Shown: in pieces, positions 17,068 through 60,037 of the stretch
How the letters are laid out: every line of letters begins with the position of its first letter
Numbering within the stretch: position 1 is the first letter of the stretch
Source of the DNA: Janthinobacterium sp. UMAB-56
GTDB taxonomy: Bacteria; Pseudomonadota; Gammaproteobacteria; Burkholderiales; Burkholderiaceae_D
Reading direction: 5' to 3'
Length of the DNA stretch: 64,000 bases
NCBI RefSeq assembly: GCF_900095265.1
Contig: NZ_LT607651.1
Location: forward strand, 550,660 to 614,659
Notes under the pieces: generated by a model
The model's input: the letters and a program-made list of their open reading frames with translations, nothing else
What the model was told of the DNA's origin: nothing
Database searches by the model: none
Position numbers and translations under genes: made by a program

Positions 17068-18366
17068 CTATACCGCTACGCTGGCGAGCGACATGTCGCT
17101 CGAAACCCCAGCTACGCCATAGTGACTCTGTACATACTTCAAGACGATGTCCTGGAATTCCTCGACGATGCGTTCGCCGCGCAGGGTGACGACTTTTTCG
17201 CCGTCGACAAACACGGGCGCGGCCGGCGACTCGCCCGTACCGGGCAGGCTGATGCCGATATTCGCATGCTTCGATTCGCCGGGACCGTTGACGATGCAGC
17301 CCATGACGGCCACGTTCATCGCTTCCACGCCCGGATACGATTTCTTCCACTCCGGCATCTGCTCGCGCAGATACGTCTGGATATTATCGGCCAGTTCCTG
17401 GAAAGTGGTCGACGTGGTGCGGCCACAGCCCGGGCAGGCAATCACCATGGGTGCGAATTTGCGCAAGCCCATGGTTTGCAAGATTTCCTGGCCGACGATG
17501 ACTTCGCGCGTGCGGTCGCCGCCCGGTTCAGGCGTGAGCGAGATGCGGATGGTGTCGCCGATGCCCTCTTGCAACAGCACGGCCAGCGCAGCGGTGGACG
17601 CCACGATGCCCTTGCTGCCCATGCCCGCTTCCGTCAAACCCAGGTGCAGCGGATAGTCGCAGCGCTGGGCCAGTTCGCGGTACACGGCGATCAGGTCTTG
17701 TACGCCAGAAACCTTGCACGACAGAATAATCTTGTCGCGGCCCAGGCCCAGCTCTTCGGCGCGCACGGCGTTTTCAATCGCCGACGTCACCAGCGCTTCA
17801 TACATGACGGCTTGCGCCGGCCATGGGTCGGCACGGCCCGCGTTTTCATCCATGATGCGGGCCAGCAAGGCTTGATCGAGGCTGCCCCAGTTCACGCCGA
17901 TGCGTACCGGCTTGTCGTACTTGCAAGCGGCTTCGATCATTTGCGCAAATTGCGTGTCGCGCTTGGCGCCCTTGCCCACATTGCCCGGATTGATGCGGTA
18001 CTTCGACAGCGCGCGCGCACAATCGGGGTAATCGTTGAGCAGGGTATGGCCGTTGTAATGGAAATCGCCCACCAGCGGCACGTCGATGTCCATCTTGTCG
18101 AGCTGCTCGCGGATATACGGCACGGCGGCAGCCGCCTCGGGACGGTCTACCGTCAGGCGCACCAGTTCCGAACCGGCACGCGCCAGCTCCTTGATCTGGA
18201 TGGCCGTGCCAATGGCGTCGGCCGTATCCGTGTTCGTCATCGACTGCACCACGACGGGGGCGTCGCCGCCCACCCAGATCTGGCGCTGGCCATGCGAGAT
18301 CAGCACCTTGCGGCTGTCGCGCCGGCCGGATGGACCGGAGCCGATCGCTGTTTTCGAGGTAGCCAT
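17068..18366 (-). CDS. ispG: 4-hydroxy-3-methylbut-2-en-1-yl diphosphate synthase (flavodoxin)
   Basis: IspG (GcpE) is the [4Fe-4S] enzyme of the penultimate MEP-pathway step, converting MEcPP to HMBPP. The 432-residue protein starts its TIM-barrel with [20 protein letters not shown] and has the cluster cysteines in [15 protein letters not shown] and in the [16 protein letters not shown] region. It is longer than the E. coli enzyme because of an insertion ahead of the C-terminal domain, as usual in betaproteobacteria. Confidence 0.97.
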
Positions 18367-52639: not shown

Positions 52640-53062
52640 TTAAAATACTCCAAACAGTTTCAAAGCGACCAAGGCCGTCAACACCAGGCTCACGACCAGC
52701 ACGGAGCTAGCGGTCTTGCGTGCCGAATCTTTTTCGATAGCGACGTGCACATCCATGAACAAATGGCGGATACCGGCGCAGAAGTGGTGCAGGAAGGCCC
52801 AGACCAGGCCCAGGGTAATGAGCTTGACGAACCAGTGCGAGGCGATGCCCTGGAAGTAGGCGTAGGACATTTCGGAACGCAGGCTCAGCTCCAGCATGTA
52901 CAGTATGCATGGCAGCAAGGCGAAAATGATGAAACCGCTGATGCGATGCAGGATCGAGACGATGGCGCCGACAGCCATACGGTAGTTCGACAATTCGGTA
53001 ACATGAATGTTACGGAATTGCGGCCGTTCTTTTTTTGGTACTTCTCTTACGGCTTCAGACAT
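52640..53062 (-). CDS. sdhC: succinate dehydrogenase cytochrome b556 subunit C
   Basis: The 140-residue protein has three membrane helices, the quinone/heme motif SILHRISGFIIFALL near residue 45, and HHFCAGIRHLFMDVH, which holds the heme-ligand histidine. It is the first sdh gene; the upstream gap carries a small palindrome AACCA-AAA-TGGTT (53155-53167). The ATG at 53062 is preferred over the open frame to 53089. Confidence 0.94.
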   Translation of the reverse strand: MSEAVREVPKKERPQFRNIHVTELSNYRMAVGAIVSILHRISGFIIFALLPCILYMLELSLRSEMSYAYFQGIASHWFVKLITLGLVWAFLHHFCAGIRHLFMDVHVAIEKDSARKTASSVLVVSLVLTALVALKLFGVF

Positions 53063-53368
53063 AACAAAAACCTCCCCTTTGAATTTCAACTAAATATTGA
53101 AGCCGCGATTTTCGCCGATTTTCGCAACCCACACCAATATCTATTGTTACATATAACCAAAATGGTTTTTTACTACAAAATACCGCGCTACTTTCCGTAG
53201 TTCACGTAATTTAATTACAGAATCGCCGGCAAAACACGGCCCGCCGGGGCGGGCCATGCTGTCGCTGCGCTTTCCGTTGTCTCCGGTGCCCGCCTTGCGG
53301 CAGGCATCTTGCAAGCGATGCACTTCAGCCTTGCTGCTTGTGCGGACACCCATGGGCGCCCCGCCGCT
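53063..53368. other. 306-bp gap between sdhC and the GntR gene
   Basis: No credible gene is present. The stretch is partly AT-rich, with the palindrome AACCA-AAA-TGGTT at 53155-53167, a plausible regulatory site in the sdhC promoter. No strong terminator was seen. Confidence 0.6.
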
Positions 53369-54256
53369 TCAGCTGAGTTCATTCTGATAATGATGACGAC
53401 CGGTCAAGTACAAGCCGCGGCGCAGTTCGACCGGCTTGTCGCCGTAGGTAAACGACACGCGCTCGGAACTGAGCAAGGGCGTGCCGAGGTCGATATTCAA
53501 CAGTTGCGCGGCGCCCGCATCGGCGCACACGGCGCGGATCTGCTCGGACGCGCGTATCATGCGCGTGCCAAATTCCGTTTCAAACAGGCCATACATCGGG
53601 CCCTTGTATTCCACCAGCCGCTCGGCCGTCAGCCCCTTGAAGATCAGGCCGGGCAGCCACAGTTCCTCGACGATGGTCGGCACGCCGTCGAAATACTGCA
53701 CGCGCTTGATGAAGATGACGGCGTCGCCAGACTTCAGGTCCATCAGGCGCGCCACGTCGGCCGGCGCGCGCACGCGCTTGACTTCAATAAACTTGCTTTC
53801 GGGATAGTGCGGCACGCCTTCGTCCGGCACCAGGCGCAGGAAGCGGAAATGCGCGCGCGCCTCATGGTGGGTGGAAACGAAAGTACCCTTGCCCTGGCGG
53901 CGCATGACAAGATTCTCGGCGGCCAGCTCATCGATGGCCTTGCGCACCGTGCCCTGGCTGACCTTGAAGCGCCCTGCCAACTCGACTTCGCTGGGAATCA
54001 GTTCGCCCGGCTTCCACTCGCCCGATTGCAGGCTCTGCGTGATGAGCGCCTTGATCTGCTGGTACAGGGGACTGAAGGTGGGCGATGCTGTCGCCGCAGG
54101 CGCGACCACGGCGGCGGCAGTGGTATTAGGGCTGGCGACAGGGGTGGCGGTGCTGCCCGCTGCGACAGCAGGCGTGGCCGGGGTGCCCGCGGTCGGACTG
54201 ACCGCCCCGCTTACAGCAGTGGCATTGTTGGTCAGATTGGACGAGGCGGAATTCAT
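53369..54256 (-). CDS. GntR-family regulator with UTRA domain and low-complexity N-terminus
   Basis: The 295-residue protein has about 65 N-terminal residues almost entirely of Ala, Thr, Pro and Val, then a winged HTH (PLYQQIKALITQSLQSGEWK, LIPSEVELAGRFKVSQGTVR) and a C-terminal UTRA ligand domain. It stands between mdh (divergent) and sdhC (downstream, same strand), which suggests it controls TCA-cycle genes. A perfect 16-bp palindrome in its promoter region is probably its operator. Confidence 0.9.
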   Translation of the reverse strand: MNSASSNLTNNATAVSGAVSPTAGTPATPAVAAGSTATPVASPNTTAAAVVAPAATASPTFSPLYQQIKALITQSLQSGEWKPGELIPSEVELAGRFKVSQGTVRKAIDELAAENLVMRRQGKGTFVSTHHEARAHFRFLRLVPDEGVPHYPESKFIEVKRVRAPADVARLMDLKSGDAVIFIKRVQYFDGVPTIVEELWLPGLIFKGLTAERLVEYKGPMYGLFETEFGTRMIRASEQIRAVCADAGAAQLLNIDLGTPLLSSERVSFTYGDKPVELRRGLYLTGRHHYQNELS

Positions 54257-54560
54257 AGTCCGACATTTCAACACAAATCACTGCCCGCGTCCAGTAAAAC
54301 ACTCGCAGTTATCTGTCTTATATAAGACATAAGATATGATTGACAGATACAGATCAGAGGCCTAAACTGCCCCCGATAAAACTTGTGAGCCAGCGTTTTA
54401 TGTTGTCGGCCAGCCACTCTGGCCTCGTGCAACACAGGCGTGACGGCGGCGTTCACCAGCAATTCGGTGGCGCGGGCCGGTTTTGGTATCATTATAGTTT
54501 TTCCGGATAAGCGTAAGCCTAGCTTCAAGCCCGTTTTCTTTCCCACTTTGGAGATTCATC
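54257..54560. other. 304-bp divergent gap between GntR regulator and mdh
   Basis: No credible gene is present. It contains the palindrome at 54314-54329 and the mdh ribosome site TTGGAGATTCATC before the ATG. The promoters of both divergent genes must lie here. Confidence 0.7.
54314..54329. promoter_or_regulatory. perfect 16-bp palindrome, probable GntR operator
   Basis: TGTCTTATATAAGACA is its own reverse complement over all 16 bases. It lies 58 bp upstream of the GntR start and 232 bp upstream of mdh, the expected position for an autoregulatory site of a UTRA-type GntR repressor. Confidence 0.65.
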
Positions 54561-55550
54561 ATGGCTAAAACCCCAATGCGTGTTGCAGTGACCGGCGCCG
54601 CCGGCCAGATCGGCTACGCCCTGTTGTTCCGCATCGCCAATGGCGACATGCTCGGCAAAGACCAGCCTGTCATCCTGCAACTGCTTGAAATCCCGGACGA
54701 AAAAGCCCAGAAGGCGCTCAAGGGCGTGATGATGGAGATCGACGACTGCGCCTTCCCGCTGCTGACGGAAATGACCGCCCACTCCGATCCGCTGACGGCA
54801 TTCAAGGATGTCGACGTGGCCGTACTGGTAGGCGCGCGCCCACGCGGCCCAGGCATGGAACGCAAGGACCTGCTGGAAGCGAACGCCCAGATCTTTACGG
54901 TACAAGGCAAGGCGCTCGACGCCGTCGCTTCGCGCAATGTCAAAGTACTGGTGGTCGGCAACCCTGCCAACACCAACGCCTACATCGCCATGAAATCGGC
55001 GCCATCGCTGCCAGCGAAAAACTTCACCGCCATGCTGCGCCTTGACCACAACCGCGCGCTGTCGCAAGTCGCTGCCAAGACCGGCACCGCCGTGAAAGAC
55101 ATCGAGAAGCTGACCGTCTGGGGCAACCACTCGCCAACCATGTACGCCGACTACCGTTTCGCCACTGTCAACGGCAAGGCTGTCAAGGACTTGATCAACG
55201 ACCAGGAATGGAATGCCAACACCTTCCTGCCGACCGTAGGCAAGCGCGGCGCTGCCATCATCGAAGCACGCGGCCTGTCGTCGGCAGCGTCGGCAGCGAA
55301 CGCGGCCATCGACCACATCCATGACTGGATGCTGGGCACGGCTGGCAAATGGACCACCATGGGCGTACCTTCGGATGGCTCGTATGGCATCCCTGAAGGC
55401 ACCGTGTTCGGCTTCCCGGTCACCACCGACAACGGTGAGTACACCATCGTTCAAGGTCTGGAAATCGATGCATTCTCGCAAGAGCGCATCAACCTGACCC
55501 TGAAAGAACTGACCGAAGAGCGCGAAGGCGTGAAGCACCTGCTGGCATAA
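54561..55550 (+). CDS. mdh: malate dehydrogenase
   Basis: Mdh oxidises malate to oxaloacetate with NAD+. The 329-residue protein is of the cytoplasmic-type long Mdh ([19 protein letters not shown] at the start), with the active-site region [15 protein letters not shown] and [18 protein letters not shown]. It is divergent from the GntR gene and followed by the CoA ester lyase. Confidence 0.97.

Positions 55551-57316: not shown

Positions 57317-60037
<2,721 letters not shown>

Follow-up and report, generated by a model that had tools for sequence, protein, structure and literature searches.

The closest described system is SdhR, a factor of the HutC subfamily of GntR-type regulators whose binding motif is given as TCTTATGTCTTATATAAGACATAAGA, a palindrome with additional symmetry, in the comparative study of Suvorova, Korostelev and Gelfand (2015, PMC4494728), which for SdhR refers to Suvorova, Ravcheev and Gelfand (2012, J Bacteriol). 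According to the same study, most HutC sites follow the pattern GT-N4-AC, with 4 nt between the arms, SdhR being among the exceptions, and SdhR was omitted from the correlation analysis, its sites being unalignable with the rest. It is also reported there that weaker extra half-sites flank many GntR operators, and that in a divergent gene pair one site usually governs both sides. The motif printed there includes, letter for letter, the palindrome TGTCTTATATAAGACA that is the subject of this study, while the left outer half-site is missing from the window (the whole stretch of 64,000 nucleotides that was analysed). The core of the operator was thus already known and its motif already predicted in print, and the promoter geometry described below is a modest, testable addition.

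The palindrome, the core of the SdhR box, is 16 bp long and fully self-complementary and occupies positions 54314-54329 of the window. It lies between a GntR-family (HutC subfamily) regulator gene, sdhR (53369-54256, minus strand), and the divergent malate dehydrogenase gene mdh (54561-55550, plus strand; NCBIfam NF003916, above the cut-off), a predicted direct target. Past the regulator stands sdhC (52640-53062, minus strand; named from its position and from inspection of the sequence), the first gene of the sdh cluster, with its start about 306 bp beyond the sdhR stop. On one side of the regulator are the sdh genes and gltA, all identified by inspection, and on the other mdh, a CitE-like lyase gene and acnA (57317-60037, plus strand; NCBIfam aconitase, above the cut-off). 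A first-pass annotation, made from the letters of this DNA, had described a perfect palindrome between a divergent GntR gene and mdh with sdhC past the regulator, and the gene coordinates agree with it in each respect. The name SdhR was assigned here from the motif and the neighbourhood; the regulator adjoins the sdh genes, which agrees with the name, although taking adjacency as a mark of SdhR is a reading of that name.

The regulator protein consists of an N-terminal GntR winged helix-turn-helix (PF00392, 4.7e-22, residues 64-127) and a C-terminal UTRA effector domain (PF07702, 2.9e-30, residues 152-287), and its nearest named relatives are from Janthinobacterium, with 95% protein identity; on this basis we assign the window to Burkholderiales at the level of order. 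Against the equivalog model of the histidine-utilization repressor HutC (TIGR02018) it scored 120.6 bits, below the cut-off of 220, and hence it is not HutC proper. DasR and NagR (YvoA), HutC-branch regulators whose structures have been solved, share the layout of GntR helix-turn-helix plus UTRA with SdhR, with phmmer matches extending over approximately 230 residues, whereas the recognition helix reads VSQGTVRKA in SdhR, TSRTTVRQA in DasR and ISRMTVRQA in YvoA. By text search, 108 of 110 orthologue loci contained the letters VSQGTVRKAI, two being without a match. For the UTRA part (residues 136-294) the best sequence match, with E 1e-51, was PDB 3CNV, a putative GntR-family regulator whose 162-residue chain is of the size of an effector domain and lacks the DNA-binding domain; we take its source organism to be Bordetella bronchiseptica. 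The operator in the window has the spacing GT-N10-AC rather than the GT-N4-AC usual for HutC sites, and this was not counted against HutC membership because SdhR is listed as an exception in PMC4494728.

Symmetry by itself says little about function in this case. The window holds three perfect 16-bp palindromes compared to a mean of 2.27 in 60 dinucleotide-preserving shuffles, 53 of which contained at least one, and even the 304-bp intergenic stretch yielded a perfect 16-bp palindrome in 22 of 5000 shuffles. A longer perfect palindrome, CGAGCGACATGTCGCTCG, of 18 bp, is present at 17085-17102. As the number of palindromes is near that expected by chance, the symmetry is weak proof, and the case for an operator stands on conservation. 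We looked for the site in the best 80 of 413 genome stretches encoding a relative of the regulator, a set including Janthinobacterium, Duganella, Massilia, Undibacterium and similar genera, with SdhC detected in all 80 of these loci. The site preceded the regulator in every one of them, in 75 exactly and in five with one change (15/16). Conservation upstream of orthologues was the test that the first-pass annotation had set beforehand for its proposal of an operator of the GntR regulator, and the outcome, together with the match to the published motif core, upholds that proposal. When 81 sequences were aligned on the operator, the palindrome and the TAAGATA on its right were kept, followed by TTGACA and a -10 element, with more variation outside operator and promoter. 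A chance palindrome, which the near-random palindrome count in the window might have suggested, is refuted by this conservation amid more variable surroundings, and we give it practically no weight. In a second collection of genomes the site was found before sdhR in all 30 loci fetched of 53, the reversed-letter control reaching at most 11/16.

Presence and absence of the site also follow the regulator. Among 59 genomes of the family that were at least 95% complete, the site (at most two mismatches) was present in 53 and SdhR (E at most 1e-50) likewise in 53, the same six genomes, belonging to three genera, being without either (G374, G378, G400, G406, G421 and G425). Identical absence sets would arise by chance with a probability of 1/C(59,6) = 2e-8, a figure that ignores kinship, as the six fall in three genera. 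These six genomes have icd, and neither type of isocitrate lyase was matched in them. Altogether, 175 sites with at most two mismatches were counted in the 59 genomes against 28 for the reversed control. In an order-level sample of 110 genomes the site, at the same threshold, was present in 68 and missing from 42 (135 sites versus 22 in the control), and 23 of the best 28 newly fetched order-level sites lay between mdh and an SdhR-like gene, with 30-79% identity. The window has no other match to the 16-mer with up to three mismatches (0.03 expected), the 6.1-Mb genome contains a single exact copy, and class-wide the exact 16-mer was found in two of 369 genomes, namely the genome studied here and G348, from another order. 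In G348 (L082, 1501-1516) the exact 16-mer precedes a GH31 glycosidase gene, and on its other side there is a permease-like frame and then, about 0.9 kb off, a different GntR/UTRA gene with the helix letters VSQGTVRKA. This is one case which would tie the recognition helix to the operator independently of TCA cycle genes.

It is therefore probable that the palindrome is a strongly conserved binding site of the neighbouring GntR-type regulator, and we hold with good confidence that it is the operator of the adjacent HutC-type SdhR, serving both sdhR and mdh; binding, autoregulation and the sign of regulation are what we infer from sequence. In the mechanism that we propose, an SdhR dimer would bind the inverted half-sites GTCTTAT/ATAAGAC, and from this single site it would control sdhR as well as the divergent mdh. 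A third half-site, ATAAGAT (54329-54335, plus strand), follows at a 7-bp step to the right, on the side of the mdh promoter, and is conserved in the alignment of 81 sequences; it may take a further subunit. The published motif with additional symmetry has two outer boxes; this half-site matches one of them, the left box is missing in the window, and one of the other loci (L192) has both outer half-sites. To the left of the operator, at 54287-54299, the letters CGTCCAGYAAAA were noticed, which are also seen left of the operator in several icd upstream regions (L219-L248).

The operator contains the letters TATAAG, and part of its conservation could stem from a promoter on the sdhR strand. Taken further, the palindrome could have been kept mainly because TATAAG serves as the -10 element of sdhR, or for the sake of another factor. 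In 83 of 105 sequences the best promoter-like match on the sdhR strand does lie within the palindrome, although TATAAG is part of every exact copy. However, the symmetric arms flanking TATAAG are conserved equally in the alignment of 81 sequences, the letters of the palindrome are found again at aceA and icd with other offsets, and they are absent from the six genomes without SdhR, which makes this explanation highly improbable.

In the first-pass annotation one regulator was suggested to coordinate mdh, sdh and possibly acn. The part concerning mdh is the natural reading of the divergent operator, while the sdh and acn parts are not supported, as no operator was found upstream of sdhC or acnA. 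In the gap between sdhR and sdhC the operator was absent in all 80 loci, where the best matches were 8-11/16, and in the 400 nt or less before acnA the best match was 9/16 in the window and 7-11/16 in 78 loci, which is background. Before gltA the values were likewise those of background (9/16 in the window, 8-12/16 in 75 loci), and the statement that there is no second copy near gltA or acnA was thus correct. With the operator absent before sdhC, acnA and gltA, direct control of sdh or acn is unsupported. Upstream of sdhC (53063-53175, minus strand) the alignment of 81 upstream regions contains a conserved block of a different kind, GTTATATGTAACAATAGATATTGGT ... GCGAAAATCGGCGAAAATCGC, which is not an SdhR site and may be the sdhC promoter with a site for another factor. 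At this conserved leader no Rfam element was found, the sole hit lying inside mdh on the minus strand and far under the gathering score, and no unusual fold was detected (z -0.7). Stable hairpins follow sdhR and mdh (z -3.5 and -3.8), with weak U-tracts, and a simple terminator scan made no call after either gene, so that transcription may run on from the sdhR promoter into sdh. Direct coordination of mdh, sdhCDAB and acnA by one operator is in keeping with the gene neighbourhood, with the literature name SdhR and with such read-through; given the missing operators, the separate block before sdhC and the hairpins, we consider it unlikely.

The motif scan near TCA cycle genes of related genomes that the first-pass annotation had proposed located sites at mdh/sdhR, at both types of isocitrate lyase and at icd. 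In the genome studied here, sites with one or two mismatches precede aceA (the 530-aa isocitrate lyase), icd2 (the monomeric isocitrate dehydrogenase, seen as a fragment and under the family cut-off because it is incomplete) and icd (the dimeric enzyme). At a threshold of two mismatches this genome has four sites against one in the reversed control, and at three mismatches six against seven, and for that reason sites with three mismatches were given no weight. Such sites are seen in this genome in the clpX-clpP interval (L087, named by eye) and upstream of a DUF3579-like gene; the latter (L086, C14:74960-74975; gene recognised by eye) runs into TATAAT and is probably a matter of chance.

When the genes were taken as the starting point, the site preceded the 530-aa isocitrate lyase gene in 13 of 14 loci, the remaining one lacking upstream DNA, and that of the 432-aa type in all 30 loci fetched of 45. 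One member of the 432-aa type is an isocitrate lyase by NCBIfam, and the 30 fetched loci are 86-100% identical to that member. For icd, 59 matches were obtained in 57 genomes, and 25 of the 30 loci fetched from among them had the site (at least 13/16). The other five had no good site (best 10-12/16); two of the genomes concerned (G403 and G423) have a site upstream of icd2, on the same contig at a distance of a few kb. Apart from the set of 14 loci of the 530-aa lyase, the loci fetched were those with the highest similarity to the query, and the reversed control reached at most 12/16 in the gene-first regions of the lyases, icd and sdhR. Starting from the sites instead, 60 regions of 19 genomes were hand-picked among the matches listed, and because of this selection we rely on the gene-first counts. 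Of 94 site-first loci, many of them fetched twice, 87 were at mdh, icd, icd2 or aceA and one at a DUF3579-like gene; the remaining six (L087, L116, L120, L129, L148 and L157), like five at the order level (L177, L178, L183, L191 and L193), were at none of the tested genes. In L116 the site is directly before a haloacid dehalogenase gene, and in L193 (1501-1516) an acetate-CoA ligase gene follows about 60 bp after a one-mismatch site, on whose other side a fumarase-like frame (by eye) lies farther off. No newness is claimed for the sites at aceA, icd and icd2, further copies through which these genes would come under SdhR.

Some features of the lyase loci were noted by eye. Many promoters of the 432-aa type (L249-L278) have a second inverted repeat, TTGyTGC-N3-GCAaAA, between the site and the -10 element, and a TAAGTnATTGA block is seen approximately 30-40 bp upstream of the site in the 432-aa and also the 530-aa type. 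Further regulators are likely to act at the promoters of the 432-aa lyase. Three of the 45 matches to this lyase (G385, G414 and G401; 62-71% identity) have an in-frame TGA. An idea of AceK replacement was dropped, since AceK is present in the genome studied here and in 46 of the 59 genomes.

The position of the operator relative to the predicted promoters differs between the targets. At mdh a sigma70-like scan predicts a promoter at 54340-54368 (plus strand), with the -35 element TTGACA at 54340-54345, a 17-nt spacer and the -10 element TAAACT at 54363-54368. In 101 of 105 distinct sequences the best sigma70-like site of an unconstrained scan had a fixed offset, 41-42 nt from the operator centre; the pattern is TTGACA-17-TA(A/C)ACT, and TTGACA is present in 101 of the 105. 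With the -10 hexamer numbered -12 to -7, the predicted centre of the operator is at about -53/-54 at mdh, upstream of the -35 element, and for both types of lyase it is at about -42 to -44. In a search restricted to 26-36 nt, the offset from operator to -10 was 30-31 nt in 12 of 13 sequences of the 530-aa lyase and 31-32 nt in 29 of 30 of the 432-aa lyase; the unconstrained scan gave scattered results for the aceA and icd groups, which are small sets. A C-TAt-ATt block at the lyase -10 position is conserved, as judged by eye and from column counts. In the 530-aa lyases the -10 is conserved, and the -35 position scarcely so (13 sequences, fixed 17-nt spacer), a combination as expected of an activated promoter.

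At icd the order appears to be reversed. All 25 sequences have a conserved promoter-like hexamer (ATAAT) 30-34 nt ahead of the operator centre, and if this block is the promoter, the operator is at about +18 to +22, although the block may instead serve the divergent neighbour gene. The unconstrained scan placed five of 16 icd sequences at one upstream offset and three inside the operator, with the others elsewhere. A promoter downstream of the operator was rejected, as no downstream column was conserved in 70% of 16 sequences and the upstream block recurs. At mdh and icd alike, the extra half-site lies towards the presumed promoter: at mdh it follows the core on the right, and at icd it precedes the core on the left. 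The five letters preceding the core at icd read TCTTA in 20 of 25 sequences, TCTTG in four and TCATG in one. For icd2 the geometry sample comprises four loci.

Most HutC-type regulators are repressors. In the GntR family, E. coli FadR acts as an activator at a site near -40 and as a repressor at sites around the start; it differs from SdhR in subfamily, effector and operator, and we see in it a precedent for a dual mode in the family. By analogy, SdhR could activate where its site is just upstream of the -35 region, at aceA (about -43) and mdh (about -53), and repress at icd, where the site would be past the start (about +18 to +22). With one operator sequence, SdhR would then activate isocitrate lyase and mdh and repress icd, acting as a switch at the isocitrate branch point, which we propose only tentatively from these positions. 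The perfect TTGACA at the mdh -35 means that no activator is needed there and counts against the dual mode, as do the scattered results of the unconstrained scan at aceA and icd and the doubt over which gene the icd block serves. SdhR could instead be a plain repressor at all its sites, released by a metabolite, with the sites at mdh and aceA hindering RNA polymerase. Such repression follows the family habit and fits the perfect mdh -35 in 101 of 105 sequences, as well as an operator that overlaps or abuts the aceA -35 position and is probably downstream of the icd start. Less easily reconciled with it are the mdh operator centre upstream of the -35, the distance of about one helical turn between the mdh and aceA positions (41-42 versus mostly 30-32 nt from the -10) and the 530-aa aceA promoters with their conserved -10 and little conserved -35. 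We give the plain repressor about an even chance and regard it as somewhat more likely than the dual role. The effector is, as a guess, a metabolite of acetate or glyoxylate metabolism.

The finding of the operator is in itself ordinary, the motif being in print, and it is the set of targets that would matter. The theme of the predicted targets is the isocitrate node together with the use of acetate, not succinate dehydrogenase, and these results question the idea, based on the name, that SdhR chiefly controls sdh. The gene-first sites at both types of isocitrate lyase and at icd make control of the isocitrate branch directly testable. If the dual role proved true, a single regulator would shift carbon between the oxidative TCA cycle and the glyoxylate shunt across much of the order.
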